Assembly: GCF_040954835.1 (NCBI RefSeq)
Contig: NC_090705.1
Coordinates: 17,372,436 to 17,436,435 of the forward strand
From: Lepisosteus oculatus
Lineage: Eukaryota > Chordata > Actinopteri > Semionotiformes > Lepisosteidae
DNA: 64,000 bases
Direction: 5' to 3'
Positions 31,303-61,300 of this stretch are shown in pieces. The notes beneath the pieces were generated by a model. The model saw nothing but the letters and a program-made list of their open reading frames with translations, had not been told where the DNA came from and searched no databases. The position numbers and the translations under genes were made by a program. Numbering within the stretch: the stretch's first letter is position 1; each line of letters begins with the position of its first letter.

Positions 31303-34193
31303 CTGGAAAGATAACAGTGAAAGGATTATATGATTTAAGTGGAAAAAACTTTCCATTCTAAAGGACATTCTAAATATGGAAAACAACCTGCTGCTTCATC
31401 CATCTCTACATATGAAATTCTGGCATTGATTTACAAAATAACCCTGTTACTTCCATCCTCTTCAAACTGACATTTAAAGACTTTGAAGATTTTAGAGTTA
31501 ATGCATATTAGAATAAATAAAGGATCAATAAAGCAGTTAAATAAAGCATCAACCACTCTGACCGAAGCAGACAAAAGAAAAAATATTAAAGCTTTTTTAT
31601 GTTTGGGTCAGATGAAAGTAGAGCATAAATATGTTAAAGAAACCTTTAGTCAATCCTTCAACAAACAAGAAATATTTTTTAAAAAGGCATTAACTATTTA
31701 AGATACTATCCACATTAAGACTTAAACCATGAGACTCTACATCCATCTCCAAACCATGATTTACTAAATAGCTGTTTCAAACTTGCATTGACCTCTTCCC
31801 AATTCACTTGCACACTTAGAATCTACTTGAAACTCAATTAGTTAAAAAATGTGGGATGAAAATTAAAGAGTACTGTACATATCGGAATCTATTCGTCTCT
31901 TGAAAGAGATCAAAAAACACATTCTGTTGTCTCATTGTTCTTGTCAATGACACAAAAAAGTGATTCTCAATGCATATATTCTATATACTGTATACCTATT
32001 TCAGAATGTTATGTGCTGTCACATTTACGGTGCATCTTAGGAGACATCTTACCCTTTTGAAGTTATGATTATGCTACAGTATGCCTTTCTTGGACACGTG
32101 TCGATTCGAGAGGTTGTAATCTCTTCTATTTCTTACCTTGTAATTTTTCTCTTGTTTGCTGCCAGATTGTATAAGCACTGCCACCCTGTGCAGTCCTGGG
32201 CTTCTGCAGAGACAGCCTGTAGTTTCACGTCTGTGCTTTGCAATCTAGAGATGAAAGTTTGTGTAATGTGAGACGAGAAATCCACAAAAACCTCACAGTG
32301 TTCCCAGTGTTGGTTGTATTGATGTTCTTTGAATTGTAGTAGCAATTCAAGTAGCACCTTAGTAACTCCTCTCATACAATTAAATCTCATTCAATACGTA
32401 AAACACAATGATTGATGCTTTAAAATCCATATATTGAATATATAGAAAATCTAAGAATTACACATACTGTATAGATTGAAGTAGATTTGTAACGTTTGTT
32501 CTAATTTCTTCTAACGTTTTTGAACACGTTCAAAAAGGATTAAAATTGGAACTTTAATTTTCGAGGGGGACAGCTTTTCTTAGCTTTAATTTAAAGGCTG
32601 GAAAAGGAGAGCACGTCTACCAGAGAAACAACTTCTGTTTTCTGGCAAATCACTTTGCTTTTAGGTTGTTTAAAAGCTGTTGATGGTGAACCCAGCTGAA
32701 CAGTACAGAGTCACGATTAATACGAGAAAAAACAATATTCTCCTGTCGTTCGCAAAATAACACTATCAGTGAAAACTGAAATCAGACGTGCAATCTTTAT
32801 TTAAGCATGAATACCCCCCAGTTCGAATAACAGAAATGTCACTTGCCTCTGTAGATTTTCCGATTGACAGAACGTCGCGCACGTTTTGTCTTCTTTACTG
32901 GCACATGTGCACCTTGAGTCTCCATGCGTCAGTCCGTTCGGAAAAGACCTGAGAGCGCGCTTCACTCTCGGAGCGCTTCCTAGCCCGTAGGAAACAGTGC
33001 GTCTGCAAAGACGAAGGAGTTACATTAGGTTTCTGGCAGTAAGGTTCTGGAATGCAGATTCCATGTGACCATGGCATGAACTGTAGCAACTTATTTTCCC
33101 CTGATGTGCTGTGGGTTGGTTCGTAGCGCAAGAAACACAAGAAGCAAAATGTCCTATGATAGGTTGTTACAGTAGCCTATACTGTATAAAGCGCTTGCTT
33201 GTTTAGTAATCGTTTTCTTAAGTTTCACTATCCAACGTTAGGAAATCAAAAAAGCAAGTCAAAATGATGGATTAAATATTCGATCCTACTCGTTATTCTC
33301 CTTTCACAGAATGCTTAACTTCACTTCCACCTGCTTTCATATAAGATCGAAATACCTCTGCAGTTATTTATATAATATATAAGTAGAGAGAGATTATTTA
33401 GGCAGGTTCTTACTCTGGTGTGTTGATCCAAATAATGTCAAGGTGACAGAAGTAGACGCATTCCTTGTCCAGAAATGTGGAACATGAGCACCTTTTCGTT
33501 CTGATGTGCCGCCAAGGTGCGCTCGAGACTGAGGATGTTTCTTGGCTTAAAGACATGGACACTGCAAAGACAACAACAATAAAAGGTTATATTTATACAT
33601 ATACGGGTTACACATAAATAAGTACTGACCGTAGACGAACAAAATACGTTGTTGTTGGGGGTACTGGGACATTTGCTTTTCCTCATAAAAATTACTTGCG
33701 ATTTGGTTAATTGCGCATTTGTGTCCCAGTATGGAATTTTGTCCAGTTGTCGAATAATGGCCATTTTTGTGTCAAAACGTATTGTATCGTCGCATTGCAG
33801 TTTTAAACAAAGTGTGCCCAATACACGAATGAAAATGAGACTGTCAGTTGTCATTGTGGTCCTCCCCAAAAAGCATTTCGAACGGTATATACTCTATATC
33901 TGTTATATGCACTTTTGTTTGTTACGGTACTTTAATTTGAATACATGAAGTAAAAAAAAATGCAATTCATCTCATTTAATTTCTGATCACAAATCGCATG
34001 TTTGCAATCTTTATTTTCTATAAAGATTAAAGTCCAAGATTAATGGTGTTTAAGAAACAGCGCCTATATACTGTATAGCTATAGACCTGACAGTTGTGAA
34101 AAAAGGCATAAACACCTAAGCGTTCAACTTACCTGTCTGAAGAAGTCCAGAATATAATAAAGACATCATTGAGAAAAGTATGTGTAATTCCAT
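31173..34193 (-). CDS. edn1: edn1, preproendothelin-1 (200 aa, five exons)
   Basis: Precursor of the secreted vasoactive and developmental peptide endothelin-1, which signals through endothelin GPCRs. Exons: 34133-34193, 33414-33561, 32847-33002, 32137-32244 and 31173-31302; 603 nt in all, phases 1, 2, 2 and 2. Residues 1-20 form a signal peptide ([20 protein letters not shown]). A dibasic KR (43-44) precedes the 21-residue hormone at 45-65 (CSCSTF...DIIW, four Cys in the usual spacing). Trp65-Ile66 is the converting-enzyme site; big endothelin ends at KR 84-85. The endothelin-like repeat [11 protein letters not shown] lies at 101-111. A later Cys pair (DCTGWQC) matches DCSKLGKKC of the human precursor. 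The length is close to the human 212 residues. Intron 3 uses a GC donor. Adjacent hivep1 favours edn1 over edn2. Confidence 0.96.
32137..32244 (-). CDS. edn1: edn1 exon 4
   Basis: 108 nt, acceptor TTTCATCTCTAG|ATTGC, donor ATTACAAG|GTAAGA. It encodes [16 protein letters not shown], then [11 protein letters not shown] and ANKRKIT. The two Cys and the basic tail line up with DCSKLGKKCIYQQL in the human precursor. Confidence 0.88.
32847..33002 (-). CDS. edn1: edn1 exon 3 (big endothelin C-terminus and endothelin-like peptide)
   Basis: 156 nt, acceptor TCTTTGCAG|ACGC. It encodes [15 protein letters not shown] (close to the human GLGSPRSKR), then [17 protein letters not shown], the endothelin-like repeat. 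The exon ends AGAG|GCAAGT, a GC donor. Confidence 0.93.
33414..33561 (-). CDS. edn1: edn1 exon 2 (mature endothelin)
   Basis: 148 nt, acceptor TTGTCTTTGCAG|TGTCC, donor CACCAGA|GTAAGA. It contains RTKR, then the mature 21-residue peptide with Cys at 1, 3, 11 and 15, then INTP. The six C-terminal residues HLDIIW are invariant in the family. Confidence 0.97.
34133..34193 (-). CDS. edn1: edn1 exon 1 (signal peptide)
   Basis: 61 coding nt from ATG 34193-34191 to the donor CAGACAG|GTAAGT, phase 1. It encodes a 20-residue hydrophobic leader. The human gene also ends exon 1 in phase 1 after the signal peptide. Too short to be seen without the splice model. Confidence 0.9.
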
Positions 34194-36647: not shown

Positions 36648-36661
36648 TTTATTATTTTATT
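36648..36661 (-). terminator. Poly(A) signals of the methyltransferase-like gene
   Basis: Two near-adjacent AATAAA hexamers on the minus strand (36656-36661 and 36648-36653), about 50 nt after the stop codon. Their position supports the gene model. Confidence 0.6.
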
Positions 36662-36709
36662 GATGAAGTAAAATAGTAAAAGTAATTTGTTTACATATTA
36701 AACGGACCT

Positions 36710-36916
36710 TTAAGATGATAGATGTGCTTGGAGGGGTGACCTCAGGTATTTGACCATGTCTTCAGCCAGCGGTAATCTATACGTCACATCCTCAGGCCCG
36801 TGAGCAAGCAGGTGAGTCCGACCGGAGCGCTGGATTCCGGGACCCACAGCGCGGCTCGCTTGCCCTTTGTGAGCGACGATGAACAGCAGTGTGTCCTCAA
36901 AGCACAGAGTGTCCTC
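36710..36916 (-). CDS. Methyltransferase-like gene, last exon
   Basis: 68 codons plus stop, starting EDTLCFEDTLLFIVAHKG and ending SPLQAHLSS. Acceptor TTTTGTGCTCTGAAG|GAGGAC. An acceptor three bases further on is also possible. The F-D-LLFIVA strand is the usual last core strand of this fold. Confidence 0.72.
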   Translation of the reverse strand, partial: EDTLCFEDTLLFIVAHKGQASRAVGPGIQRSGRTHLLAHGPEDVTYRLPLAEDMVKYLRSPLQAHLSS

Positions 36917-39900
36917 CTTCAGAGCACAAAACGACCAAAATGTTTTTGATAAGTTTCACTTATTATTATTAAGTTTCACTTTTAGCAGCATCTCTAAAAT
37001 CAAGTGTACGCGAATGAATTTAAAAATCCGCAAAATTGTTTCTTTGGTGTCTGTTTTTACACTGTTATTGGACATTAAGGACCAACATAATGTTCATATA
37101 CAGTATGCGTCTACTGCACAGATATCCATGGGTGTTTTTTAGGCAAAATTAAGTGTGTCTTACACCTCTGGAGGTAAAAGTTCCGTACCATCAACTTTAA
37201 ATTCATAGCAATCTGGATTCGTACTGAATTTCACCCACCCTGACGTGTGCTCAAGTTTCTACAGCCAGGACTCGGTTAGAAACTGTCCATTCGATTATCA
37301 TGTTCTATACATGTTCTGTACATTCGGTTTCAAGCAGAATAGCTCGTTTTGATGATTTTTCAATGCGACATAAACGTTAGAATGAAATATGCCTGGACGA
37401 AATCGTAATTTCCTCCCACCTGCTGATTGCAATTTACATATTGGGTAAATTTTCCCAAGACTACATACAGAAAAGAACTCAAAACCAAATTGTACAGAAA
37501 AGTAGGCAAAACACTAAATTTACCAAAATCCAGACTTGCACAGCATCGCACCTACAGTACAGCTTCATCATTAGGTGCAACAGCTGGACATCTTTTGTAA
37601 CATAAATATATTAGTTTCTGACAAATTGTGGGCAGGTTTTCAGTATTTACTCTTTTAAATCGTCCTGAATCAAAATTTGTTTATGCTGCACTATGGATAG
37701 TAGTGAAAAAAAAAAACTGCTGATAGATATATACAAGGAAAGTTTACCGTTTAAGTGATTTGACGCTCAAGAACATGGAATTGTTTGCTGAATTATTTTT
37801 TTTTAACTTACAGAGTATTTGAGGCACCCTTCTCTTAGCTCCTGTAGTCCCGTAGTAATATCCTGACCACTTAGACACTGCAGCATGGGCACACACTTCC
37901 TTCCCAGCAAAGAAAGCCATTCTTCCTACAATGCGATAATATTGGGAATTAACCCCAAACCAAATTGTCACGACAACCAGGCAGTCAAAGACAAAGCGTA
38001 AGCGAGCTAATCAGACCCAGCAGCGGGTGATTATCAACAAACGCCGCCGCACGAGTTAAACCACCTGCGCACACTCATTGCGGTGCGCACTGTTATTTAA
38101 ACCATCTGCACCTGCTTCCCACTGCTCGGTATTGAGTCTACTCCTTGAGAGCTCTACCTGGCGTTTTTCCCCGTACCTCGTTTATTCCGGTTTTTGGATT
38201 CCCCTTCTGCCTTTTCGACTTTGCTCCTCGCCTCTCGACTCGGACTGTCTGCTACCGGTGAACTTCCTGGATTACGACTTGCCTTTCGCCTTTTGACTAC
38301 GACCTTGCCTCTCGTTCTGGTTTGTTCGCCTGCCTCATCTATCACCCGTGCCTGCGTCTGCACAGGATCCGTGTATCTTCTCACCAGGGATTCCTAACAC
38401 AAATATTGTCAGTATTAGATCCCATTCAGATAATACTTTTCACCTCAAGCTCTGTATGGCAATACATAATACATACAAATCTAAAAATCATTAAAATGGT
38501 CACAGACTAGCTATTTTGACTGTAGCTTAAAGATGTATGGATCCATCCAGCCATTTCTTGATAGAAGCCAGGGTATTAGCTGCAGCAGCACATCTGAATA
38601 GCTTGTTCCAGACTCCCACAACCCTTTTTTGTTAAGAAGTGCTTCCCGTTCTCAGTTTTAAATTCACATTCATGTAGTTTCCACTTGTGATCTTAGGATT
38701 AAGCTTTCCTCTTGATTTTGTAGTGCACTGGGACTTCAGACATCTTATGTTTTTGTGCTTGAAATGCGCAGCAATTTGGAAAGCTTACCTTAAATCTGTC
38801 TAGGCCTTCTAGTCCCATTAAAATAACAGAGAAATAATCAAACTAATATTAAGCAACATACAACAATTCCAAAAGGAGCTGAAACAGGACAAGAGGGAAT
38901 TCTGATTCACTAATACCACATCTGGCCAAAATCCAAGGAATGACAGGTCAGACGAATAGGCTCTCTGAGTGACAGGCAATGTATGACTTGAGGGACATAA
39001 GAAAGACTTCCATCACCTTCCCTTACCAGAACCAGCTCAAGATCTCAATCCAGTTGAGAACTAGTAAAATCAATTGAAGTTCAAGTCCTTACATCATCAT
39101 CTGAAGGTCATTCTTCTATAAAGGTGGGATGGGCTGCAAATATTTCAAAACCTTGTAGGACATATGCATGTGCTTTTACAGCTGTCCCTGAAGCTCACAG
39201 GAGCCTAACATATCAGTAGTTAAGCCTTCCAGATATTTTAACTTTCCTGTAATGGGAAATGCCCAATGTCCTGAAAACTGATTCCCCCATAATGGAATGA
39301 TGGTCAGATTGCACGTTCCATAATGACGTTTGAAAGACAAATCTCACTTGTAAACAGAAAGATAAGAGAATAGTGGGGAAAGTATTTTGTCTTTTGAGTA
39401 ATTGGTGTATTAGTTCGTACCAAAAATAATATCCTACTGTTTTCCCACTGTGATTTGGCAGTTTTAACACCTTAGGTTCACCGAAGGTTCTTCTCTATTT
39501 CTGTTAATAACCTGAGTTTTCAGTTTTAAGTTTCTTTTGTCTTCTGCGTGTACTGCAGCAGCCAACGCTCAGTGGGATAATAGGACTGTCTGTATGAAGG
39601 TGCTTATAAGAGAGCAATGTGGCTCAATGAAGAGCTCTCATTACCTTGATTAAAGTTATGAATAATGGCATTGCACAGCCTTGTGTGTCTTACTTACCTT
39701 TCTCATTTTTACTGGAACAGATTCTAGTTCCCACTCCAGCTCGGCTTCAACTAACCTCAGACTCTCAAAGATTTTCTGATGGAAAATGGACATAGTGAGT
39801 TGGAAACAGGAAATACCAGAGCCAGTGCGCACCTGTTTATGCCTTTTGTGGTTGCCATGTCTGTGGTGGACTTTAGCAAGGCTGAATGAATTGCTTTTAA

Positions 39901-41806
39901 ATCATACTATAAAAATATTATTACAATATTCTATGCTATTCCATACTACTATTGTAACATGAAATCACAGTAGTCTATAGTATTGCACACTACTACTGTT
40001 GTACAATAATATAACGATTTTTAAAAAGACAAACGTTGAATTTAAACACAAAGTTACAGGTACTGTACATCGTAGGCTATTCTGAATACTAAAATATTTT
40101 TTGTTTCCGAAAGGAAAATAAACAGAATAAACATTCTGTGCACTGCCTTCTGCTGTTCTGTGCCTGCAAGCCATCACAGCACATTTGTTGATACCGAACA
40201 AAATGTAAGTGTATATGAAATACAATATTTAACTACACACAAATTAAAGCTGAGGGTTATAAAACAACATGAAATGCTTCTGGTAAAAAAGTACACATCT
40301 GTTGGCAGAATTAGGAGAAACCTGCCAGTCTTGAGTTTTGGCCCTGTGGCTCACAGTTTCGAGGATAGATGCTTAATTACCTCAAAGGGATAATCCTGTT
40401 CTCCCATCTTGTCTTTGGCTTTCCTGAAGAAAGGAAGCGTTGTCACCGGTGCAGGACGGTGAATCAGGAGAGCTGCACCAGACTTACTCAGTAAACTGAA
40501 GACTTTTTTGAACATCTGCGATGGGCTCTGTTCTCAATTGAGAAGGATTTGATATCACTTAATCTTCCCGTGCCAAAAGGTAAGAAAATACATTTGTACA
40601 TGGAGACAAAAAAAGACACGGAAATTGGTGGCCCCAGTAGTCCTCAGATGTTTAGTTGAATGCCACAATATAATCACCAGTTTGCAAATCATCTCCAAGT
40701 ATCAACTTTGTGTAATTTTAACATGAGTCACTTTAAACAAACTAACACAAGCAAGTAACGAACGAATGCTCTTGTTGTGGTATCCAGACATACAGTACAT
40801 TAGCTAAAACAGGAGTTGTGGTGTACAGAATTGTCCTAGATTTGCTACTTAAAAGACATTGGCAAATAAAAACAGAAGTTTCTAAATTTAAATGATTAGA
40901 AGAATGTTTGGAACAATGTCATTCTATAAAGTTTTATATACTGTAAATTAGAGCAACATCTAAAGCTTTTTGCCAATTGGAAGTTCCATAGAAAAATCAA
41001 TAGCAGCAGGATCAATCTGGGAGGTGTAAACTAGGTGGTAGAATACGCAGAATCTCCTAGTGTTCACATGGGTTTTTCCCTAGTGCCCTGGGCTTCCTCC
41101 CGTCGTGCAAAAAACAAACTGGCTAAGTTAATGTCTAACATCCTCAGCATGTGATAATGGCTAACTTTTCCTTGTTTGTGTGCATGTGCCCTAAACACAC
41201 TGGATTTAACTGGCAGCCCAGCCTTGATATAGTCCTGCCTTCTGCCCTGTGTCTACTGCTGACACAATTGGCTGTCGATGATGATATTGGACACAATCTT
41301 AAGAAATATGAGACTGAAAGAAGCTGCAGAATATAGCATTATTCAATACCATTCAGAAAACCCGATTAAGTGAAACTGAAGTGGATTTGGTAGGTGCTAA
41401 GTAATGAATAATGAGCTTTTTTATTATTGCTGTTGCTATAAATACATACCTCTAAATACGGTAAGGCATTGACAAGCAAAGCCTTGTCAAAACTGCCTTT
41501 CTTTAGGTGTTGTAACCCTTCGATGTCACTGTTAATCTCTTTGGGATCAGCAGTCTCTCCCCACAACACTGGATGTAAAAGTACCAAAGTCTTCTCCAGG
41601 GCTGGAATCAGGTGTTCCCCATCTTCTCCCATGTAGAGCAATTTATGATGCGGATCCAAATCCAAATATTTCCATATCAGCTTGACTAAGCTCTCTTGAT
41701 AGTGACTTCCAAACACATGACAGTAAGCAGTGTGCCCTTCACTCCTTACTGAAGTTGACTGAAAGCCACTGCACATTAAACATTCACTCATCTTTTGTCT
41801 TAACAT
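36710..41806 (-). CDS. Unnamed SAM-dependent methyltransferase-like protein (300 aa, five exons)
   Basis: Five exons join in phase 0 throughout: 41450-41806, 40381-40527, 39698-39775, 37812-37925 and 36710-36916 (903 nt, stop at 36710-36712). The product has the layout of a class I (Rossmann) methyltransferase. Strand one with a motif I-like LLYMGEDGEHL is at residues 56-66, an acidic-start strand FDKALLVNALPYL at 106-118, a helix plus strand SLLSKSGAALLIHR at 130-143, and a closing strand FEDTLLFIVAH near 238-248. All introns are GT-AG, and AATAAA signals lie about 50 nt after the stop, so it looks like a live gene. The first Met could instead be 41791 (295 aa). Substrate and partners are unknown. 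The human interval between HIVEP1 and EDN1 has, to my knowledge, no such gene. Motif I is degenerate, so catalytic activity is uncertain. Confidence 0.75.
37812..37925 (-). CDS. Methyltransferase-like gene, exon 4
   Basis: 38 codons beginning EEWLSLLGRKCVPML and ending in ITTGLQELREGCLKYS. Acceptor CATTGTAG|GAAGAA, donor TACTCT|GTAAGT. A solo LTR begins 40 bp upstream of the acceptor, in the preceding intron. Confidence 0.72.
37961..38404 (+). mobile_element. Solo LTR of an LTR retrotransposon with 5-bp target duplication
   Basis: A 434-bp unit at 37966-38399 begins TGTCACGACAACC and ends ATTCCTAACA, so it has the TGT...ACA termini. It is flanked by identical CAAAT at 37961-37965 and 38400-38404. 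A TATA-like TATTTAAA lies near 38094. No second LTR, gag or pol lies next to it, so the interior was probably lost by LTR-LTR recombination. The 5-bp duplication is usual for Gypsy-type elements. It lies in intron 3 of the methyltransferase-like gene, antisense to it. The open frames inside it are not genes. Confidence 0.88.
38540..38720 (+). repeat. Interspersed repeat fragment
   Basis: The stretch around ACTCCCACAACCCTTT followed by a segment ending TTTTAAA and CACTT recurs near 25855-25925 in this window, which marks it as a dispersed repeat. The family is not identified. It lies in intron 3 of the methyltransferase-like gene. Confidence 0.4.
39698..39775 (-). CDS. Methyltransferase-like gene, exon 3
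   Basis: 26 codons (KIFESLRLVEAELEWELESV, then PVKMRK), acceptor TTTTCCATCAG|AAAATC, donor AGAAAG|GTAAGT. Both splice signals are strong and the exon is phase 0 at each end. Confidence 0.75.
40381..40527 (-). CDS. Methyltransferase-like gene, exon 2
   Basis: 49 codons beginning SPSQMFKKVFSLLSKSG, acceptor GAGAACAG|AGCCCA, donor TTTGAG|GTAATT. An alternative in-frame acceptor (CATCGCAG|ATGTTC) would remove four codons. It holds the helix and strand that follow motif IV in class I methyltransferases, including GAALLIHRPAP. Confidence 0.72.
41040..41290 (+). repeat. Degenerate SINE body
   Basis: Pieces such as CACATGGGTTTTTCCCTAGTG, then GCCCTGGGCTTCCTCCC, and further on CCTGCCTTCTGCCCTGTG resemble the conserved body of fish V-/HE-type SINEs. 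It overlaps the 3' region past exon 1 (intron 1) of the methyltransferase-like gene. Boundaries are uncertain. Confidence 0.4.
41450..41806 (-). CDS. Methyltransferase-like gene, exon 1
   Basis: 119 codons from Met 41806 to the donor TTAGAG|GTATGT. It carries the putative cofactor-binding strand (LLYMGEDGEHL) and FDKALLVNALPYLE at its end. The sequence just upstream of the Met is an A-run after a T-rich stretch and lacks a pyrimidine tract, which argues that this is the first coding exon. A non-coding leader exon may exist further upstream. Confidence 0.75.
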
Positions 41807-45116: not shown

Positions 45117-46316
45117 TCAGGTCGCTATTACAAGTCTGTCCTCGTCATCGCTAGAGACGTCATTGTACTCCACTGTGATCTGACGTCTTGGGGCCCCTGG
45201 GCATCCTTGAGGCCTTGCTTCACAGGAGCCTCCTGGAGAAGCCTCTTGCTTTGAGACTTCTTCCTCACTGCCCTTTACAAAGTGCTCAATGGCAGAGCCT
45301 CTGGTGCTTTGAAGTGGTGCTGTTTCTGGGCCAGCCTTGGGTCGTGACGCCACTTCTTCGTCACACTTTGCGCTCTCTGCAGTGCTTCTGGAGCCCGACG
45401 GCAGTTCTGGCCTGTTTGAGGGTGTGATTTCTAAATCCCTTAGCTGAATACTCGTGGATGTTTGTGGGGTTAATGCCCGACCGGCAGTGTTGATGTCGAC
45501 ATCCCCAGGAGGGATTATGGATCCTTGAGTAAGCGTAGCATCACAGGGTTTAGAATTGACATTGGAAGTTTCTTCCCCACCTTGGCTTTCAGCTGCAATC
45601 GGACTGACCGATGGAATGAGAGTGGGCAATGCTATGTTCAGGATCTGCAGCCCAGGGATGTGTGCTTGTGGGCTCGGGCAGTTCTGGCTTGGTGGGTTGG
45701 CGGCCAGCACTTGCAAGCCTAATGCGTTCAGAGTGAGGCTCTGAGGATGCACCTGGGGGGCGATGTTGGAGTTTGCCAGGCCCACAATGTTGAGCGTCTC
45801 TAGGCCCAGAGCCGGAAGGGGCTGGAGAGTCTGAGTGCTGAGGGTTTGCAGCCCTGTAACACTGACCTGTCCGATGGGAATGCAAGGCAGCACGTTGTTC
45901 ACTTGTTCGGTCATAGCCAAGGGGTTGCCAGCGCACGGCGCTCCTTCAGGGGATTTCTCTCCATGGGGGCTGGCTGTGCGGTGAATGACGCTCACAGCAG
46001 GGATGGTGAGCTGCACTGGCCCGGCCTGGATCGGCACAAAGGTGGAGTAGGCCGCCAGCCCAGCGGGCACCAGCTGGATGCCCCCCACAGGGATCATGCT
46101 GTAGGGGGTTCTGGTGGGCTGCTGGGAGTGCAGGGGCAGATGGCTGAACAAGTGTGTTGGTGCTGCTGCAGGATCTATCTGACTCTGAGGGAGGAACTGG
46201 GGCTGCAGTGGCGGCGCCGTGTAGACAGACGCAGGCACTAAATTGGTCTGAGTGCTGCGATCAACCGGCAGCCCAGCTTCACTCTGCTGACAGGACTGGC
46301 CCCCTGGCAAGTGAAC
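45117..46316 (-). CDS. hivep1: hivep1 last coding exon
   Basis: 1200 nt, acceptor TTCTTTTCAG|GTTCAC in phase 0, stop codon at 45117-45119. It encodes 399 residues with the conserved [64 protein letters not shown] and [19 protein letters not shown] segments. The C-terminus [13 protein letters not shown] is close to that of human HIVEP1 as I recall it. Confidence 0.95.
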   Translation of the reverse strand, partial: VHLPGGQSCQQSEAGLPVDRSTQTNLVPASVYTAPPLQPQFLPQSQIDPAAAPTHLFSHLPLHSQQPTRTPYSMIPVGGIQLVPAGLAAYSTFVPIQAGPVQLTIPAVSVIHRTASPHGEKSPEGAPCAGNPLAMTEQVNNVLPCIPIGQVSVTGLQTLSTQTLQPLPALGLETLNIVGLANSNIAPQVHPQSLTLNALGLQVLAANPPSQNCPSPQAHIPGLQILNIALPTLIPSVSPIAAESQGGEETSNVNSKPCDATLTQGSIIPPGDVDINTAGRALTPQTSTSIQLRDLEITPSNRPELPSGSRSTAESAKCDEEVASRPKAGPETAPLQSTRGSAIEHFVKGSEEEVSKQEASPGGSCEARPQGCPGAPRRQITVEYNDVSSDDEDRLVIAT

Positions 46317-49300
46317 CTGAAAAGAATGATCAGAACACAGAGAAAGACATTAGGTTCAACTAGAACAATGCTAAGGGAGGGATTCCTAATAAAAGCAAAA
46401 ATACCAAATTGCAAAAATGTATGCATAGACTCAAGCTATTCTCTGCATATGAAGAAAAAAAAAGAACAAAACATGTACTTGAAAGCACAGCTTTACTGAA
46501 ATTCTATTTAAAATGACCTATTTAACAATTATGGAAACTGTAACAACAACCAAAGTACAGTGTTGAAGTTTACCTTCACCTAAAATTCCTTAAATCATTT
46601 AAGTATTCAATTAAAGCTGGAAGGCATAGTCTCTTGTTGATGTAAAAGATAAAAACAAATGAATAAGGTTCAGTATGGAACTTTTTCCCACAGTGGGAAT
46701 CATTGTCCTTCTAACAAACAGGTCTGCAATGGGAAACCTTTTCATAACAGTCATGAAGTGTAGTCCAGTGAAAATGTTTCAGTTGCTGTTTTTTTAAATG
46801 GGGGGTTCCTTGAAGGTTAATGTTAATTCAATGGAAAGGGCTGAGCGTCCTTTCGGATTACGGTTTTTCCCACAAAAGCAGATGGATGACAGCTTCAGAC
46901 TAGACTGGAACATGCCATGATGAAGGATGCCAAACAAAGCAAAAGCTGCAGATGGAGGAAGAGTAGCTAATGGCTTCTGGTACTTTGGCCAGGCAGACTA
47001 CGCACTGGTGCAAGAGGAGAAGACATGGCGTGATGTGCCAGAGCACCTGGCTTTAGCACAATCCAAATATTTAACATACAAAATATTATTAACTGCAAGT
47101 ACATAGCATATGTTCTTAATGTGGTTAATTCTTAAACTTTCAGTTTCATTTTATGATTCTCCTTATAAATATTTATTTTTCTATAATTGGAGCTCAAATT
47201 CATGAATCCTCCCATTATATGATTTTGTTTAGCTTGGTCAAAGAATTACTCATTAAAATTAGGTTAAATTAAGATAAAGAAAATACTAAAAATCACTTAC
47301 TGCTTTTTTACCCCATCTTTCACAATAACTACAGTACATGTTTGGCCAGTGCTTCCCTTTCAGGAACTTGACCTATTCTACAAATCCATGCTTTACCATA
47401 ATCTCAGACTAAAACAAAAGGCAGTGTATAAAATGTTTTTAGAGCTAGTGTAGCCTTTCAACATGCTATTTAATTTGCTCCACTCTTTGCCACATAAGGC
47501 ATAAAAATAAACTTCCAAATACTTTTTTGCTTCAACAATGAGTTTAGTTCTGTTAAACTTGTATTTCTAGTGTTTGACGTTTTTTTTATAATATGCATAT
47601 AAAGAAGATGCAAAAACCTCTTGTAAGATGTGTCCTTACATTCTATTTTTTTGTTTTTTCTGGAAACCTAAAGAGCCACATACTGTATAAGTAACAACAC
47701 AACTACCCCTGCGCAGCCTCATTTTTGCTTGAGCTTGTATTAATCGCAAATATAAGGGACTTGATTAAAGTTGAAACTGGCGGATTGCCTGATTTTTTAC
47801 CTCGGTGTTCATTTCTTTTAAGTGCCAGCAATCTCAAAAGACCCGCATTTGTCACTATGTCAGTTCATGAGTCAAAAACACAACAGAAACAAAACGGCAA
47901 CCTTTGACGGCTCTGAGACCTTGTTTGAGGCCGAGGGACTGAGAGGATCGTCCTGCTCCGGGTAATCGATTGACATCTGTCGGCAGGGGGACTTGGGGCT
48001 CAGCATCGCCACTGCGTCTGACTCTGTCTCTGTGCCAGGGCTCCTGTGTGTGGAGCTGGCCTGTACTTCTTTAGTGGACAGAGGGAAGGCATCTCCTGAG
48101 ATACTCATTTGTGCCAGCAAGGCGCTTGGGAGGGTCTCCAGAAGAGCGGTGTCCAGCCTGGCCAGGCTCCTCGTCACCCTCTGCTGCTCGTCCGCACTGG
48201 CGCTGCTTGGAAACTCGCTGTGGCTACTGCCTGCTGGGTGATGCTGAGGGCTGGCAGTGACTGACGGGGTGGCAGACAGCACCGACTCTGCTTGGCTGTC
48301 TTCCTCATCCTCTTCCTCGTTGTCATTATCGTCATCGTCCGCGCCATCCGAGTCCTCCACGTCTGAGCCTGGGCGTTCGTATCCCAGTCTCCCTTTATCT
48401 CCTGCGGGGTACAGTGACAACAGGGTCATATCGTGATGTTTTAAATAAGTAATTGGAGTTATATAGCGCTTTTTATCCCAAAAGATCCCAAAGCATTGTG
48501 CTTGCTGGAGGAGACCCATTTTATCCACCACTTAAGCATAGCACCATCTGGGTGACACACAGCCATCTTTCTGTATCAACACTCCACTGCACAGCAGATC
48601 AGGTGGAGAAGTGAGAATGTGCTAAAAAACACAAGCTGAATTAAAGGGGAGCTCTGAGGAATCCAGACGGTAGAAGAACAGTATGGAATTTACCCAGGAC
48701 ACTAGGACTAACAGCCCTACACTTTTGAACAGTGCTATGTTATCTTTAATGACTAAGTAGTCAGACCTCGGGCTAATGTATTATCTGAAGGACAGCACCT
48801 ACGACAGCACAGTGTCCCTGGAGAAATCCTACCTCCTACTGGTCCACCAACACCAGTGAAAGATCCTGACCAGGCCCAGCCTTGCTGAGCTTCTGAGATC
48901 TGACCAAATCGGGTTATGAGGTGGTAACACCACTAGTAGCCCCTATTAAGTGAGAGTTCATGTGAACTTTTATATTTACACATACACACAGGTATGTGTG
49001 CGTTTCTGTATATATATATTTTACCGGTCTAGTGAAATACATCGTCAAACACATCTGGCTATAAAAAACCACCACAGTGTGTCCCTAAAACACAGAACAT
49101 ATAGTCAGTACATGGTTTAGCTCTCTCTAGTGTCCACTGTTTCAATATTAAATTATCAGAAATCCTTACTCTCAACAACAGTCTCAATGTGCTTTGTAAT
49201 AATAGGCAGACCCTTTACATTTCTAAGTGCTAATATAAAATTCTTCAATTCACCCAAGCCGATCCTCTGAAATGATAGAGATAAAAATGTATTGCTTTAT

Positions 49301-52300
49301 GCACTCACTGTCATTTTTCCTAAATATTAGGAAAAATATTATTACTCTTTATAAGCATGAATTAAAATATTTTCATAAGTCTTAAATCCCAGAGCTTCGA
49401 CACAAACAATCCTTCACATCAGTAATATCACTGCTGTCCTAGACTACATGCAGTTTTTTGTAATTCATCTGAAATGCTGCTTGGATATTTTGACTGAACT
49501 TCTAAAGTAATGCCCTTTTTTGTCATATTGACCAACTCAACTGGACGCAACAGAACCTGTTTTTATTAAAGATTTGTTCCAAAAGTGTGTGATCACATGT
49601 GGGAAGGATCATCCATTAGTAAAAGTTCTTATCCATTCACAGTGTTTTAAACTCCAGTCAGACAGAAATACTGTATGTCTGCAGATGAATCTTAATTCAC
49701 CTACAGTAGGTGGCTTGTTCACAACATATACCTTCTCATATCAGAATTGGTGTGCATCTCTTTGATCCTGTGTTACACATGCACTACAACAGATGGAAGT
49801 TAATGAAAAGCATTAATAAGATTTTTTCAGATTTAGAGTACATCATTTAGATTTAAATTTAAATCTACACAAATATCTTACACTGAAGAAAAGAAGCATG
49901 TTACCAGGGATATTAGGGCTGCTAATATACATCAACACATCAACTGTGAGTTTGCCAGGCCAGTAAAAAAAGCACTGTCAATGCATCACATACTGTAGGT
50001 GACAATTTTGCCAGGGAACCAGAAAACAATGAATGAAATTTCTAATGCCCTTAAAGTAATAAGTAATGACTAGCGGTACATTTCTCACAGCATGAACAGT
50101 ACAGTTGACCACAGGCAGGAGGAAACAAGCTGTACAAAGTGCTAATAATGAGATACAAGGCATTTGTCAAAGCACTCAGTGCATAGCAGTTTATGCCTGG
50201 CAATCTTACTACCTGAGAAAAAAAATCTTTAGTTATTAAGTTTTCACCAGGGCACCACATGGCTGTAAGCTGTACTACAATCCACACAGAACACAATTCC
50301 AATAGCTTATTTATTACTTTCTCCTAACAGTTCCACATTCCTTCCCGTGTCCTTAATACTGTAAAGACACTCTTCCCCCTCATGGGTTGAAAAGAGTGAT
50401 CTGCATACAATACTGCACTTACATGGCCATGGCACACAACATGTTTTCTGCAGACATTATTCTGAAACACTGGGTTCATGCCAATCAGTTTTAGGATTCA
50501 CCAAATAAATGAAGGGCTACATCAATCTACAGGGGCTAGTCATCTTAAATATAAAATATTTCATATTTTAACAATGCAATTCCAATGTTGCCCTTTGTGC
50601 TTCTATGTTAGTGATCCATTCAGGATCATTCATTTCATTCATTCCTTAAGGACACATTTCCACAGAAATTCCATAACTGCTGCAGAAAATAATTCCTGAT
50701 TTACAGGCAGAGAGTACTCTCAACCAACAGAGAGAAGACACGATATATACTAATTTATTACCCACATTTTCAAACACTTTCTAGAAAGACCAAAATAGGA
50801 ACCTATTAATGTTCGAAACTGTTTTGCTAAGTCCCCAATTCCTCCTCCTCAACAAAAGACTCTCAAAATGTCTAGCATTTCAATGACTTTTAATGGCAGT
50901 ATGTCAATCTTCCAAGGTTGGATGAACTACTTTACTCCTGGTAGCATTCCTTTGCAAAATGTCTCTTAAAGAAAGAAACTAGTTATTAGATAACAAATGA
51001 TTAGTTGCAGTGTGCTAATGCAAAAAATGTGCAAGTGGTCAAAAGAATATCTAATAAACTTGCTTAATTAGAACTGCTTTCTATTTTTCTGAAAAGATGA
51101 CATCACCATGCCCACACCTACACTGAGTTTTGGAAGAAAAGCTGCAGTCAAATCTGTACAGAAAAAAAAATATTGATGGTAACTGTTGTTCCCAGTACAG
51201 AGAAACGTAAGGAGCAGGAAACTGAGACGTTTTAATAATTTAAAATAGGTAGAACAGTTGTTCCACAGCTTTAATGAACCACATAATAATAGGAAGACAT
51301 CTGCAACAAATGTAATAAATGTTATATTGCCTCCTAGATCCTGTTTTATTGCTTAAGGGTTTTTTGTGCCTTAATGTAATGCTTGCTGGAATAGGTTCAG
51401 TGCGTATAGCGCAGTATTAGTATTCAATCCTGATCTTCATTTTTCTGCAATAAATCTGACGATTTCCATAGCTTTTCTTAAGGGGATGATTCACGTATCT
51501 AATCAAAGCCGGCAGTGGGAAAGGGCCCACACGGAGATGCTATCATTAGCACGTTTTGTGTGGCAAGGCGGCACTGGCTGAGTTCAGTCGTAATTGCAGA
51601 TGCTTCGGAAGCTCACTCTCCAGCTAACTCACAGGAAGCAGAACAGAAGACGACCATCCTAACCCCCCCCCGAACATACACACACAGCAGCACCTGCCCC
51701 CCCTTCGCTATTTTTTTTTACAGTGCTGGAGGAATTCTCAAAGGCGATTTGTCATCCTCTCCTGTATGAAAGCAGCGTGGGTGTAATGAGGCCCGTTTTC
51801 ATCCCTGTCACTCGCCCACAACACTGGCGCATGGCTCTAGGTAACTAATTAGAAGGCAAGCTGATGTAGGGGCTGGAAATGCACAGCAAATAAAGGATCC
51901 ATCACCCACATTCCCACAGATTTAGCAAGATACTGCTGTCAGCCTGAAAAACAAATACTCCAGAGCGTTTGCAACCAAAGAAAACACAAGCTTCTGTACT
52001 TTCTAATATTAGAAGCTGTAATTTCCTATTTTAAATTATGTGCATACCACCCACATGTGATTGGAGTCATAAAGAAACAACATTTAGCACTATATAAACA
52101 TCCACTACCATTCATCTTGCATTCCAAAAGTATTATAGAGGAAACACCAAGTTGTTCCAACTTTATTATTATTTTCAATTTCACTTTCAAGCTTGAGACA
52201 CAAGAACAGAAAAAATATCTTGTATGGAAATTATTCAAGGTTGCAAATCCAGAGTTAGGTATCTGCTGCAAAAAATAACCAGGTTCCAAATTTAATTTTG

Positions 52301-55300
52301 GTTAAATTATTTTTAAAAAATGAGTTTGTGTTCATCTTGAAACAGCAGAGGGGTAATTATGATTTTGATAGCATGGCAACTGTTTGTTAATGTTCAATTT
52401 AAGTACAATTCTCAGAAAAATCATTACATATAGATGGAAAAATCCTTATTTGATTGTGCAACATTACTAATAATAAATCATAACCACTTTGAAGATAAAG
52501 AGGTAAAAGAAATGAAATAGAGTAAAATATTCTTTTATTCCTGGTACTCTTGGCTTAGTTCACTCCTCTTCAGTAAAGACAGACCCAATCTTGGTTCACA
52601 GAGGTTAAAGAGTCGCCTTGTTTTTGAAATAGAGCTTTGGTCTCACAAATGAACGATGATGACTCACACTCCCTGAGGTATTTTATTGCGAATCCTTGTT
52701 GATCTACTCGGCAGGGGCTACAAATCTGGCAGAAAAGCATCCATCATCTTTATGGAGTGAAGAGGAATAAAAAATACAGTGCACACTCTTCATCAAACAT
52801 CAACTTACTTCTGCACTTACACCTCTCATTCCGAGTCATAAAACAGAAGGCACATATTTAAAAGGGTATAGTAAAGTATAAATTATAACTTACATTTTTA
52901 TGCAGTATAAATATATTTCTAAAAGGCCACACATAAAGGAAATCCCAGTGATCAAACTTTACAGGCATTATAACGTGCTACAGGGAAGACTTACTTCTGT
53001 GCAAATGATAATGACTCATACGAAACTTTCTGAGATTTTGACACAATTAACTTTGTACGGAACTGTTAAAGTTCTGTATGGCACTGCACAAGCCAACCGA
53101 GTTAATGTATCTGAAGTCATTTCAATGTGACGTGTGAAAAAAAAATTCATCCTCAGAGGTACAAACCTAGTTAACCCAAAGTATAAGGTAAGAATCTGTA
53201 GATGTAGGTAATTCCCTTATTTGAATCACAGCAGCCCAATTGGTCACAGCTCATCCTGATTGTTCCTGGCATTCGGTGGATTAGAGAGAGCACTTGACAG
53301 CCCCCTGAATGGGATGCCAGTCTGTCAAGAAAAATTATCCCCCAACTAAAGCAGCTGGATGGACTGGAGCAACTGGGGTGAAATATCTCACAAAAAGTAC
53401 AACAGCAGATCAACAGATGGAACTTGAACCCACAGCCAACCAGTTATGAACTCAGAGACTTGTTCAATATGCCACGGCACACCTGAACATTTTACAAACT
53501 GCTGTCATGCAATGAACTCTTGCCTCCATGAAAAAACACAGAAAAAAGATAGAACTGACTAAATATGTTTCAGCATTTCACTGGTAACTTTCATGATCTG
53601 TCCATACAATGCTTATTTTAACTTCTTAAAATAACTTCTTATAAAAGTAAAAACTACAAAATATTTTTTCAAACATTCAACCCGGTGGTGTTCAGGAAAA
53701 TGTATTTATACAGAAATGTGATATCTGGTTCATTACTCTCTTATATCTTGATTTAGAAACTCGAGATCCCATCCTCTTTTTTCCTTTTAGCCTCAGTCCA
53801 CCATACTCAACCAATCCAGCAGACCCAAAAGCTGAGTTTTTTCTAATATAAGGCAATAACTGTTTGTTCATGAACTTTAAAATGAGGCAGAAATACATTA
53901 TTATTACAAATTATCTTTCTCCAGCACTTGAATGAAGCAAAGGTGATGTAAATGTCTGATTTAATGTGTGAAGCTGGCACCGAGGGAACAGAGATCAAAT
54001 CACATGACAGTCACATGTACAGTATGTCCACGATCCTTTTTTTAACATTTTGCTTGTTTATTCATTTTTATACCTGCCCACGTTGGAACCTGTAATTATT
54101 TCTGTAGCTCTTGGCTACAGCTCATAGAAATGCCACCTGTCCTGCACAGGGAGAATCAGGAAGGGGAGACACACGAGCTCCCATCCACTGAGTTTTTGAC
54201 ATGCCGCCAGACTGGAGAATTCACTCCGACTGGAGGAGCAGCACATCCTTCACGGACACTGCTGCCAGCCTGCGGGCACAGGGGAATCTGCAGAAATCAC
54301 TAATTGGACAAAAACTGAGAAAGCCCTGCATGAGTAATCTTAAAGTGCTCCTTGGAGATAGATATCCAGCTCCATGGGCTTCTCCTGCTAAAAACTGGCT
54401 GGTGATACAATATTTTGAATTCTGATCACCAAGAGAACATAACCCTTATCAATGAATCCGACCAGAAATTACGGGCAATCAGGAATGCAGACAAAGCTTA
54501 CCTGACTCTTCTGCGTCTTGATCATCTATGAGACCCACAGAAACACCCATTTCCATGCATTTCTTGCTATGGGCTTTGGACTTCATGTGCTTGGTCAGGT
54601 TACCTGTGAAGGCAGAAGAAGGTAACAGTTAAATAACACCGCCATGAAAGAGATTTGGGAAATATGAAATGTACAGAATACATTAACAACCCATGCTGTC
54701 AAGGCGGAGACACATGGGATCTTTTCAAAACTCTTCACGCTGTGACAGAATCATCTGAGTAGTAAAAGAATGAGCTCTATTGGGCTGATAGTCTTGTCCT
54801 TGTTCTTAACATTTCTTATCGCCCACAGGTGAGTGAAAGTAGAGAAACGAAAAATGCTAGTGTTGTGATTAATGACCTTAAAAGTGGATGTAAATAAAGC
54901 TCACTTTAAACATGTATAAAAGCTTTAGAAAAAAATCAAAAGAATCATTCAATTAGTGAAAAAAGTTGCGGATTTCCTTTGTAATACTATATTTCAAAGC
55001 AGATCTCTTCCTGTTGTTTTACAAAATATTTACACCTATATTTATCAGCAGCACTGAACACAGTGCTAAATATACGCTCCAGCTTATGGTATTGCTTTGT
55101 TAGTGTGCTTGGTACTTTTTTACTACTTGAACTGAAAGTTGTAAAGAAAGAGTGGATTAGGATGTGCAATGAATTATCCACCTTGAAGTGTATTGAAATA
55201 ACCTTTCAGGAGCAACTATAGCACAAAGGCATCAGAAGAAATGTGAAACAGACTGTGAAAGGAACATACTGGCTGAATTGAGATAAATACTAACAAGCTT

Positions 55301-58300
55301 TTGAGGAATATTTTCCTTAGAATACCATGCAGGTGCTCTAAAAAGCTTCACAGGCTTGCAGTCTTCATACAAGGGGCTATAACTGCAAACACCATCATAT
55401 AAACTGGTAAGCTCTCTTGTGTACTACTGTATACTGCTGCACAACTGTTGTAATCCTCCCCTCCTTGATCCGGAGTGGAAAACTCAGCTCTACAAAGTAA
55501 GCACCATGCTATGGAAACACCAGAGGAATTACTTGGCACATTTTATTGCAAATGCATGAACCACAATCAACAATATATAATACAGATGAATGGAACTCAG
55601 TAAAAAACCAAAAAAAACAATATATCAATGACTTGCTCAGTAATTACATGACAAAGTAGCAGCCAAGAATCAAAATGGCTAACTATATGAAAAGCCCATC
55701 AGGCTAGGAGAGGACAGCATGCAAAATACTTTTATAAGCAGACAAACCATTTGAATTTCTGTAGTCTTATGAAACAAGAATTAATGAACTGATAAAAGAA
55801 AATTCCAAAACTCACAAGTGCACATACTGTACTGTAGATGGGTTTGTGTTTCATTTTATAACATGCAGAGAGGTGTCTGTTTTCACAGCACATTATTGTA
55901 TTTGGATTTTGTGCAGACAAAATAAGAGAAATAAAGTGTATTATACTCCATCTAGTCATAGAATTACTTTCTAGTACATTTAAATAGATGGCCAGAGGAA
56001 CAGTGTGGTATTCCTAATGCTGGAATTAAGAAAAGTTCGTCTGTATTGTGTCTACCTATTTTCCTATCCTACCATATCCCAAATATGTTCTGTAGGATTG
56101 AGGACAAAGACTTTACCAATCCCTGAAATGTTTTCAGTGCTGTTCTTCAAGAACACCACATCCAGAATTGTGGCTGAGCTTATCAGGATGCTCACCATAA
56201 AACTGCACCTTTTTGTCCAGAGAGGGACATGATTCGCCAGCAAGCAGTGCCTTTCACAGAAAACAGCAGCTTCCATTGACCTGTAAGGCACAGCCAGTGC
56301 CATGCTGAACTATAGGAGCAATATCTTGTGGACTGAACCTTTTTCTGGGCTTCTGCCATTCTTGCAGTATCCCATTAGAAACAATAGGACACATCACTCC
56401 AAAGCCAGGTGTTCTACATTCCACCATCAATTGTTCTGGGACAGCTGTAGCCATATCTGTGAATTCACATGGGGTGATCATTGACTTAGGATTGCCTGAC
56501 CCACCATAAAAGCCTTGGACATACAGTTCTTAAAATCAGTGGACACACCTGCAGGCACAACTGTGCAGTTAATGATTTCACCATGTGAATTGGAAATTGG
56601 ATTTGTGTTTACCAAGTACTTTACTGTATTGTTAGGTCCATTCTGACATTCTTTTAGGTTCTGCACTGATGTGTCTTACTTTCTTTTTCCACCAAATATT
56701 CCCCACATTGGACTCTGAGAACTATAACTACAACTCTGCTATAGTGTCACTTTTAAGACACCTTTAAGACACCTTAACTGCCTTGAATAAATTAGCACCA
56801 AACTGTTCTAAACTTTGATAAATGTCCACAATGAGAGGCACTGGCTGTATTAGGCTACAGATTTACATCATTATACCTGTGGACTTCCACACACATCCTC
56901 TGGATAAACACTGTCTTGTGCTACAATCCAATACTGCCAAAAGAACAATTTAATCTAAACTCTACCCATACTGTAACACCTTACAGATATGTTAGATAAG
57001 ATCCTGAAAAGTATGTCCATATCCAGCAGTGGCTTGAGCTGCACACATCATTCCACTAAATGCTGACAGATGTTCTTGCAGCTGTGGGACTTCATAGCCA
57101 ACAACAATTAACATAGCTCTGCATGAAATACAGGGACCATTAATGGATAGTGATTCAGAAGCTGCATGTTGCCTGAAATACTGTACAGCTGATGATTTTT
57201 TAATCTGTCAACGGCAGATAAAACCTTTGTGGCTTGACATATTAGCCTGGTCTGCTGCTGCCTTCCATGGTGCACCAGAGGTATAGTATGTGCATCAAAA
57301 ATCTTATCACTTACAGCAGCCTTCTTTCTCATTAGCATAGCACACTATGGAAAAGGTGTGATTTGATGCTGCATTACAGTCCTCAGGACTCCTGAGACAT
57401 AGGAATGCTTTCAGTTGAATATAGGACATATAGTTCTGTATAGTATTCAGTGCAGCATATATTGTATATGTGTGCCAAACCACAGAACATATTAACATTT
57501 CTTATAACTGTTAAGTCTTAGTAGCACAGCAGCTTATTTTGTAACTAAGAACGTTTTGAAGGCATGTAGGCAGTATTGATTTGCTGTTCCATTTCCCAGA
57601 GTATGTGGGCAGTGAGGTGATCCTTCATTGAGTCACACTGACCTTTTAAGAAATTGAGAAGCATAGGTTTATATTTTCATTCCTCTAGAAAACCATTTCA
57701 AATAATATGATTTAAGAAAAGGACTATGTGGCTCATTTTTTTTTATCATGTTACAGTCCTTAAACAAATATTCCACTCGTTAATATGCCTTGCTTTCCTT
57801 TTTCAGAAACCCGTAAACGTGGTGTTTTTACCAGGCTTGTAGGGGCTTAAACTGAATTTCCACTTTTGCACTATAAATATCATGAAAGTCCATAAGGTAA
57901 TATTTTAAGCACATCTTTTATATTACTTTGATATTTTTAACCTCTTTAACCAATTTATAGACATTTATATAACAAGGAGCATTAAAAGAAAAGTGAACAA
58001 GTACCAAGATGTAACTGTACTCAAACTCAAATAAAAATTAAGTTAAAATCTTCTAATTTCTTCTAATAGTTAAAAAAGTCTAATTCTCATTAGTGGAAAT
58101 AAAACATGACTGTAAACTACATTATTATACTTATTACTTTAGTACTTTGTATTATACTCATTACATTAAGTACACTTTTATTTCTGTACAATTTCTATAA
58201 TGATATGTAGAGTACATCTATTATATACCTACAGTAACTGTAACTTAACCTTATCAAGCAAGAATCAAAATGTCCTATATCACAGTGGCAAAGGGGTACG

Positions 58301-61300
58301 TTTTATACAGATTAGGTAAATGTCCCTATGTCCCTAGACAGTGCAAGTGAGGAGGACATATTCACAGTGAATGAGAGAATCCTGAGGCCAGGGCTAAGAG
58401 GTGTAAAAAGACTTTGATAAAGAATTCTTGCTGTGCTCTAAAACATGCAAAACACTGTTTTATATCACATTTTTAGAATGACACATAGCAGACTGATAAA
58501 GTTCTACTTAAAAAAGGTGAATATGACACAAAATTAGTTCAATAAGAACTAATGATTTTATATATTATTAGCTTTAAACCCAGCTCTAATTATTTAATAA
58601 GTTCTCGTTCTTTTATTTGGCAAAAAATACTCCTCAGTTTCTGCTGTTTATTGCTAAATAATTTATTACTTGTATGGTTATGTAGAATGAAGAATACTAT
58701 TAATAATGTTTATAAAGTTATAGAAAGTTAAAGTTCTGCTGTATAAAAAATGCCACTATGGAAGGAAGATCAGTTCTTTTTAAATAATTTATATTTAATT
58801 GAATATTTTTCTGCCTTCCTTCCATATAAACCCTATTAATACAGAAAACATACCCTATACAGTATATATCTAGTGTTTAGCATTTATTTGTATTTTAAAA
58901 GATTTTGGAAAAGTGTGCATACACATGAGATTCTTGTTAATTTTTTTCCATGCTTTCAGTGCCTCACCTTTAGTTTTGAAGGAAAAGTTACAGTAGGTGC
59001 AGTGGTAGGGGCGGACATCTGTGTGGGTTCGAATGTGCTTCCTCAACATGCTGGGCTTCTTACATCGGATCCCACACTCTTCACAGATGTACTTCCCTCT
59101 GCCCCTGCCCCGCACGTACACATAATCCTCATTTGACTTGTACCTGGGAATGAAACGTCAAGAGCAGAGTCAGATTTCCATTAAAGACTGGATGACCCAG
59201 GAATGAATCAGTTACATGACAGCCCTAAACGTCAACTCAAAATGGTCAAATATCTTATTTTTTAAATATTTTGAATTTTTCATATACTGTACTTTAAGGT
59301 GCATAATGTGTGTATCTCTCTCACCAGAGAGATACACACTGTTCTCGAATGTAAAAAAAAACACTTGATGCAGAAATGTCTTTACCAAGAAAGATACTTA
59401 ATATTTGCTCAGAAGTGTCTGAAATTATTGGGACCTATAATGTTTAGTGCTCCACTTTCCTTCCAGGCCTTGTATTGATTACATAGACTGTTTTGTCTTT
59501 AGTATAAGTTGTATTGAATCTGTGGCTGCTCAGACGGCAAGGGCATCTAGCTCCTGACTGGAAGGTCCTGGGTTCAATCCCAGGTAGGGGCAAGTGATGT
59601 AGCTTGCTCTAAATCCTTCCAGAGGGCTCCCAGGTCCACTCAGCCTACTTTCCAAATGAGTACCAGGGGATAATCCTTCTGGGGGTAATAGGCCAGTCAG
59701 AGCATGATGCTGACCATATCACCTCCACCTCCAGTGTCAGATGGTTGAGAAAAATGGGGGCCCTCACCCCCCTTTCCCCCATGGGCATTTATGGCCTGAA
59801 AAGGGGAGCTAACCTACAGTACCTACCTACATAAGCTGTATGAATGGCACTGAAATCCTCAGATTAGAAGAAATGATACAAAATATTTCATAAAGAAAAA
59901 TGTTTCTTTTTTAACAAACAGTATTTCTACACCATGAAAGCAAGACAAAACATTAAAATGTATTTCAGAATGTGGAAAACAAATCTGTATATATATACTG
60001 ATGGTAAAAAGAAACACATCATTTTCTGGAATGAGAATAGTATAGAAGGTTTCAGCAGACTGGCAGTACAGATGACCGTCCAAGATCTGGTCGCCCTTGA
60101 GTGACCACACCAGAGCAGGACCGAAACATCAGACTGGTCCATCTGAGAGACCATTTCAGATCTGCCACATGTACTGCTGCTGAAACTGCAGGCAGACACA
60201 ATGCCCAAATCAGTGACAGGACACTGTGCTGCTGGCCTGAGAGCAAGGTGACCTGCCAGAGGCCCTCTGCTCACACCTCCTAGACATCACACCCGACTGG
60301 CTTGGGCCAGACAGAGGCTGCGATGGACTCGTCAGCAGAGGCATCAGGTCCTCTTCACGGACGAGTCACTCTTCAGCCTGTTCCATGCAGACGGGAGGGC
60401 CAGAGTGTGGAGGAGGAGGTGTTGTGTTTTTTTCCCATCAGTATATATAGAAAACATATACAAATTGATTTGACTAGATTTTAAACATTTTTAAGGTTTA
60501 ATATGCACTGTTTACATGTTATACCCACATAAAGCATGATATTTACTGTTGACTGATTAAACATTTTTGGTTTAATAAAGTAATGCCAATCTTACTTTTA
60601 ATGTTGACAATACATGCTATGATAAAAGGCTTATGGCATGAAGTCGATTATAAATTTACCACAAGAAACAAATCTAACCATTTCTATATTTCAGTAGTAA
60701 GTAACTATGCACTTGCTTTCTGTTTTTTTTCTCACATTTTGGCTTGTATTTGTAGTAGTACGTACCCTCCATCAAAGATTTTGACTCGTCTTGGCTCACT
60801 TTTAGTTGAAGACTCCTTGTCTGACTCGCTGGTCTGTTGGTTTTCTGCTTTGCCTTTATTGTTTTTTTCCTTTGGCAAAGACGTCTGAGGGGCTAAAACC
60901 TTTTTAGGTTAAAAAAGTTAAGAATCGTAGATAGTCTTAGAAAGGTATTTATTATCCAAACTTCTATGCATTTTTCATTTTCTGTACTGAACTGACAGAG
61001 TTGTGGTAATGTTTATAATAAAAAACGTGTTCCTCTAACAATATTTAAAATGGTTAAAAATGAATAAAACTGAATGAGGCATATATGTTAGCAGTCATAA
61101 ATTACAGACTAAAATAAAGTACACACATCAGTAATTCATTTGCTATGGTTACTTGTGGGATTTTGTGCTAATTTAAATGGCAGATTATAATATATAATAA
61201 AAAAGTACATTTTAATCTGCAAAAAATACCACAGGCAACAATTTCAAATTAATTAATACATATGCTTGCATTAAATTATTTCCTAAAATGTCATTAAAAC

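Follow-up and report, generated by a model that had tools for sequence, protein, structure and literature searches.

The 64,000-nucleotide stretch of the Lepisosteus oculatus genome analysed here (contig NC_090705.1; hereafter the window) holds an intact five-exon open reading frame between two genes that we take to be hivep1 and edn1, and this frame is probably an intact multi-exon coding gene with class I methyltransferase-type sequence. We lean, with moderate confidence, to the reading that it is a real protein-coding gene with no detectable paralogue, whose single-domain product descends from class I SAM methyltransferases and no longer has the glycine motif that holds SAM. Three direct observations carry this reading: the five-exon frame is open and has coding periodicity, a methyltransferase match extends over the junction of exons 1 and 2, and the motif I glycines are absent. 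What appears to be new here, judging from the sequence, is the combination of the missing motif I glycines with a short N-terminal half of the protein.

Gene model and flanking genes

The five minus-strand exons listed in Table 1 join into one phase-0 frame of 295 codons, which begins at the ATG at 41791 and remains open as far as the TAA at 36710, with GT/AG boundaries and phase 0 at all four introns. The original prediction had described a 300-residue protein from five phase-0 exons, with poly(A) signals just past the stop; that version is the 295-residue product plus five more residues from the in-frame ATG at 41806, and all of the exons and the joined open frame were found as described. 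The poly(A) signals were found as well, as two AATAAA hexamers starting on the minus strand at 36661 and 36653, 49 and 57 bases past the stop. Exon 5 closes with 49 codons (ASRAVGPGIQ...QAHLSS; 36713-36859, minus strand) whose first and second positions have a higher GC content than those of the remaining gene. The residues they encode matched no known domain and are possibly a lineage-specific C-terminal extension.

The end of hivep1 lies upstream on the same strand and edn1 lies downstream. The position between these two genes that had been claimed for the frame holds, as hivep1 exons and an endothelin-type peptide flank it, and the observation of an intact five-exon frame between hivep1 and edn1 is confirmed; the names of the flanking genes are putative, based on the known sequences of these genes and on the original prediction. 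The long hivep1 exons occupy 45117-46349, 47872-48531 and 61440-63998. Pfam named no family on the hivep1 pieces. When 849 residues of a long hivep1 exon were compared with the genome, hivep1 itself and two weaker relatives on other contigs were found; hivep is a three-gene family, of which hivep1 and two relatives are expected in a genome without teleost duplicates. A second cysteine-rich endothelin-like motif is present on the minus strand at 32911, and it is likely to be the endothelin-like segment of the edn1 precursor. To our knowledge, the human HIVEP1-EDN1 interval contains no coding gene, and the titles and abstracts found in literature searches on this interval and on related themes mention none there.

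Table 1. Positions in the window of the candidate gene, its flanking genes and the intronic repeat.
Feature	Position	Strand	Description
edn1, likely first two coding exons	33410..34193	-	Signal-peptide ORF 34193-34116; endothelin peptide from 33496
Two AATAAA poly(A) signals	36648..36661	-	3' of the stop
Exon 5	36710..36916	-	68 codons + TAA; putative beta-7 (TLCFEDTLLFIVAHK), by eye; 49-residue tail without known match
Exon 4	37812..37925	-	38 codons; putative helices between beta-6 and beta-7, by eye; least supported exon
Young solo LTR, 434 bp	37966..38399	.	TG...CA ends, CAAAT on each side; intron between exons 3 and 4
Exon 3	39698..39775	-	26 codons; putative beta-6 (LRLVEAELEWEL), by eye; chosen by the crude gene finder
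Exon 2	40381..40527	-	49 codons; putative helix + strand beta-5 (SPSQMFKKVFSLLSKSGAALLI); ordinary acceptor; alternative in-phase start 40515
Exon 1	41450..41791	-	114 codons; N-terminal helix, degenerate motif I (LLYMGEDGEH), putative strand beta-4 (SFDKALLVNALPYLE); alternative in-frame ATG 41806
hivep1 exons	45117..63998	-	Last residues at 45117

Splice sites and coding signal

Among the 7,289 GT sites scored in the window, the donors of introns 1 to 4 rank in the top 0.8%, 2.0%, 0.08% and 7.8%, and among the 8,332 AG sites scored the acceptors of exons 2 to 5 rank at 44%, 3.6%, 8.5% and 6.1%. The donors are good (that of exon 1 reads GAG/GTATGT, the slash marking the cut) and the acceptors are fair, except for that of exon 2, which is ordinary.

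The coding signal was measured as codon periodicity, that is, GC at codon position 1 minus GC at position 2, a test that makes no use of the methyltransferase match. The joined frame gave 0.18 against 0.02 ± 0.04 for 2000 stop-free simulated frames, none of which reached this value, and a null built from the exons' own dinucleotide content gave 0.03 ± 0.04, again with 0/2000 as high as 0.18. GC at position 1 exceeded GC at position 2 in every one of the five exons. This periodicity is the one homology-free measure that clearly backs coding. The amino-acid composition is protein-like when compared with noncoding DNA of the window (17.7 bits versus −36 ± 10; 0/2000 nulls), and it is equalled by 11% of the nulls that keep the dinucleotide frequencies of the exons. 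Little was gained from a codon model trained on 1,430 codons of hivep1, perhaps because of the skewed composition of hivep1: 7%, 23% and 37% of stop-free noncoding pieces reached the scores of exons 2, 3 and 4, and 0/2000 reached that of exon 5. The corresponding figure for exon 1 (52%) is void, as the pieces were of unequal length.

The stretch was also read with a crude gene finder that used fixed site costs and disallowed sites inside the intronic repeat. Its top-scoring chain, at 21.4 bits, started within exon 1 at an inner ATG (41632) and joined the 3' part of that exon to exons 3 and 5. When the repeat was left unmasked, two false exons were taken inside it. The best chain on the opposite strand of the same 7-kb stretch scored 8.6, and the maximum in 10 control strand-segments (window positions 1-35000, one of them containing edn1) was 11.1; in these controls nothing was disallowed, and most of that DNA doubled as the noncoding background. 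Since the gene finder picked part of exon 1 and exons 3 and 5 and passed over exons 2 and 4, exons 1, 3 and 5 stand without homology. The full five-exon chain scored −0.2 on the same scale, and the coding score of exon 4 was 0.7 bits. Exon 2 rests on the methyltransferase match described below and exon 4 mainly on its phase and splice sites, and these two are the weakest of the five exons.

Methyltransferase-type sequence

The original prediction had called the product a class I SAM methyltransferase-like protein and had proposed a Pfam comparison of the joined translation. The joined protein matched PF08241 (Methyltransf_11) over residues 86-134 with an E-value of 0.0027, but the score of 18.7 bits lies under the curated cut-off of 21.2 bits. 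The aligned block, SFDKALLVNALPYLESPSQMFKKVFSLLSKSGA, spans the junction of exons 1 and 2, and a beta-4/helix/beta-5 sequence block is present in it; the profile matches to methyltransferases start within exon 1. No Pfam methyltransferase match was obtained with the exon 1 open frame alone, with exons 2-5 alone or with exons 3-5 alone, and none of seven shuffles of the protein matched any Pfam family at E up to 1. The claim is supported by the sequence block, the Pfam match and the leading splice join described next, and it is weakened by the sub-threshold score and by a degenerate motif I.

The junction itself was evaluated by scoring splice joins on both strands with a profile made from eight methyltransferase cores, at modest site thresholds, of which the acceptor threshold was low enough to let in exon 2. 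Across the 15,490 joins scored in the window (9,320 on the minus strand and 6,170 on the plus strand), that of exon 1 to exon 2 came first with 10.7 bits, and the next reached 5.4. A join of at least 10.7 bits was present in one of 120 dinucleotide-shuffled windows, which averaged 11,517 joins, fewer than the real window, so that the selection-corrected chance of such a join is about 1% per window. An alternative in-phase start of exon 2 at 40515, which removes the residues SPSQ, has the better acceptor (−0.6 versus −3.5 for 40527). It was rejected and the start at 40527 was kept, because exons 1 and 2 joined from 40515, in a construct without exons 3-5, gave no Pfam methyltransferase match.

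A profile of juvenile hormone acid methyltransferases (JHAMT) matched residues 90-137 with 9.9 bits. When 1000 shuffles of the protein were run against two home-made profiles, 476 and 512 of them were listed with scores, and none of those listed equalled the real protein. In a search of solved structures the best matches had E-values of only 0.54 and 0.86, and the last 132 residues matched no solved structure; NCBIfam gave no match to the protein and Rfam none to the window. Exon 1 folded alone from its single sequence yielded a model with a mean pLDDT of 45 and helices only, and we regard this prediction as uninformative and not as contrary. The strand beta-6 in exon 3, the helices in exon 4 and the strand beta-7 in exon 5 are putative, as they were read by eye.

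The SAM pocket

Motif I, GxGxG, is present in all eight methyltransferases used for comparison, whereas the protein of the window reads GEDGE (within LLYMGEDGEH), so that two of the three glycines are absent. The spacing from LLYMG to SFD is 51 residues as compared with 58, 58 and 66 in the three comparators counted, and since the shortened stretch lies wholly inside exon 1, no missed exon could fill it. An Asp follows beta-2 in 8/8 comparators. In the window protein Asp89 takes this place in one MAFFT alignment and does not in the other, hmmalign leaves this half of the protein unaligned, and in the Pfam and JHAMT profile alignments the neighbourhood of Asp89 falls further along the domain. 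On these alignments, motif I appears to be the only SAM contact that is clearly lost. The absence of the motif I glycines together with the short N-terminal half makes a pseudo-methyltransferase likelier than an active enzyme; the catalytic competence of the encoded protein is, as far as its residues can tell, doubtful, and because motif I is degenerate, the term methyltransferase-like should not be taken to mean an active methyltransferase.

Relatives in the genome and rejected identities

The protein found its own five exons in the 1.2-Gb genome and nothing further below E 4, and the DNA of exon 1 matched at one place only; searches with the protein and with exon 1 DNA thus detected no paralogue in this genome. 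We regard a weak match on C3 (E 4.3) as noise. Because the exon 1 DNA and the exon translations match only their own locus, a repeated mobile element is an unlikely source of the exons and was rejected. No relative was found in plasmids, viral contigs or prokaryote genomes, which were searched in part with exon 1 only or with the first 245 residues. At E up to 1, the search of the genome with PF08241 returned 26 places. We read 24 of them in frame; none resembled the gene of the window, and those that could be named are, we assume, other methyltransferases. Two tandem clusters of Methyltransf_11 genes were seen in the same genome, at C5:32.74-32.78 Mb and C12:7.75-7.77 Mb, and they are presumably METTL7-like and DDB_G0268948-like.

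The window protein shares the beta-4/beta-5 block with PF08241 but differs from the family in its sub-threshold score, its want of GxGxG and its short first half. Likewise, only residues 90-137 resemble the juvenile hormone acid methyltransferases (9xyq, 7ebs), and these enzymes keep motif I. Histamine N-methyltransferase (HNMT) was considered as an orthologue or paralogue, since by eye the last 60 residues of the domain look alike and the human enzyme (1jqd) is similar in length and in its hydrophobic last strand. There is no significant similarity, however: the score of the alignment with human HNMT was matched by 51% of 500 shuffles. In addition, the HNMT-like sequences of this genome sit on C12, where query residues 169-291 lie in one uninterrupted frame, whereas in the window gene the part after beta-4 is spread over four exons. 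Both the shuffles and the HNMT-like sequences on C12 refute this identity at the sequence level, and we give it practically no weight. Among vertebrate proteins, anamorsin (CIAPIN1) has a methyltransferase-like domain without the SAM motif, but its C-terminus is an iron-sulphur region with many cysteines, and the window protein has no such region.

Discussion

In the reading we lean to, an intact gene encoding a descendant of class I methyltransferases, the gene would be transcribed and spliced in the five-exon form, and its product, probably cytosolic, would fold as a methyltransferase core in which exons 3-5 supply beta-6 and beta-7. Such a product could be a non-catalytic pseudoenzyme whose role is to bind a partner or a small molecule. 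The original prediction had proposed either an ancestral vertebrate gene lost in mammals or a fish-specific insertion. A more far-reaching version of our reading, which we offer tentatively and consider somewhat unlikely, makes it an ancient pseudo-methyltransferase gene of vertebrates, present in a single copy at a fixed place between hivep1 and edn1, which some fishes have retained, which disappeared on the way to mammals, and whose non-catalytic function is undescribed.

The closest rival is a class I methyltransferase that is active and whose SAM pocket has diverged; here LLYMGEDGEH would still make up the glycine-rich loop, and Asp89 would be the acid that follows beta-2. The intact frame fits an active enzyme, as does the order of the expected core segments, which can be read by eye from exon 1 through exon 5, and one of the two alignments puts Asp89 on the acid. 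Yet two of the three motif I glycines are missing in every alignment that places the motif, the LLYMG-to-SFD stretch is shorter than in any of the three comparators counted, and both the Pfam and the JHAMT profiles carry the region of Asp89 to a later part of the domain; we consider an active enzyme unlikely.

The same degenerate motif I might mark a recent relic, a former methyltransferase gene in decay whose exons have so far been spared while its splicing fails, helped by the insertion of the solo LTR. The ordinary acceptor of exon 2 and the presence of this young repeat close to the acceptor of exon 4 agree with such a relic, but 295 codons free of stops and frameshifts, the excess of GC at codon position 1 over position 2 in all exons and the poly(A) signals speak against it, and we find it improbable. 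It is more improbable still that the exons are a chance chain of open frames that happens to resemble a methyltransferase. Such a chain would account for the shuffled window with an equally good join and for the low score of the full chain in the crude gene finder, and it was selected by the original prediction from many possible chains; on the other side, the periodicity test is independent of the methyltransferase match, and the control segments all scored below the best sub-chain. The reading of an intact, methyltransferase-derived coding gene is the one we retain.

If the gene is real and conserved, it would add one more vertebrate protein to the small set that has the methyltransferase framework without the standard SAM motif, and it would place an unrecognised coding gene in the interval upstream of edn1. 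In human studies this interval is treated as regulatory DNA. As a single gene with no orthologue or function known it is of moderate interest, which a series of conserved orthologues would raise.

A probable solo LTR in intron 3 and a tandem repeat

The 434-bp repeat in the intron between exons 3 and 4 lies 41 bp away from the point at which exon 4 begins. A genome search with this repeat gave 1,673 first-look candidates, and the 40 that were scored were all 98-100% identical to it; many of the scored copies were paired about 4.7 kb apart. The repeat is best read, from its sequence, as the solo LTR of a young, recently active family of LTR retrotransposons. As it lies near the expected position of the branch point before exon 4, it may influence the inclusion of this exon. 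Elsewhere in the window, positions 7487-7566 hold a tandem repeat of two copies of a 40-base unit that match at 100%.
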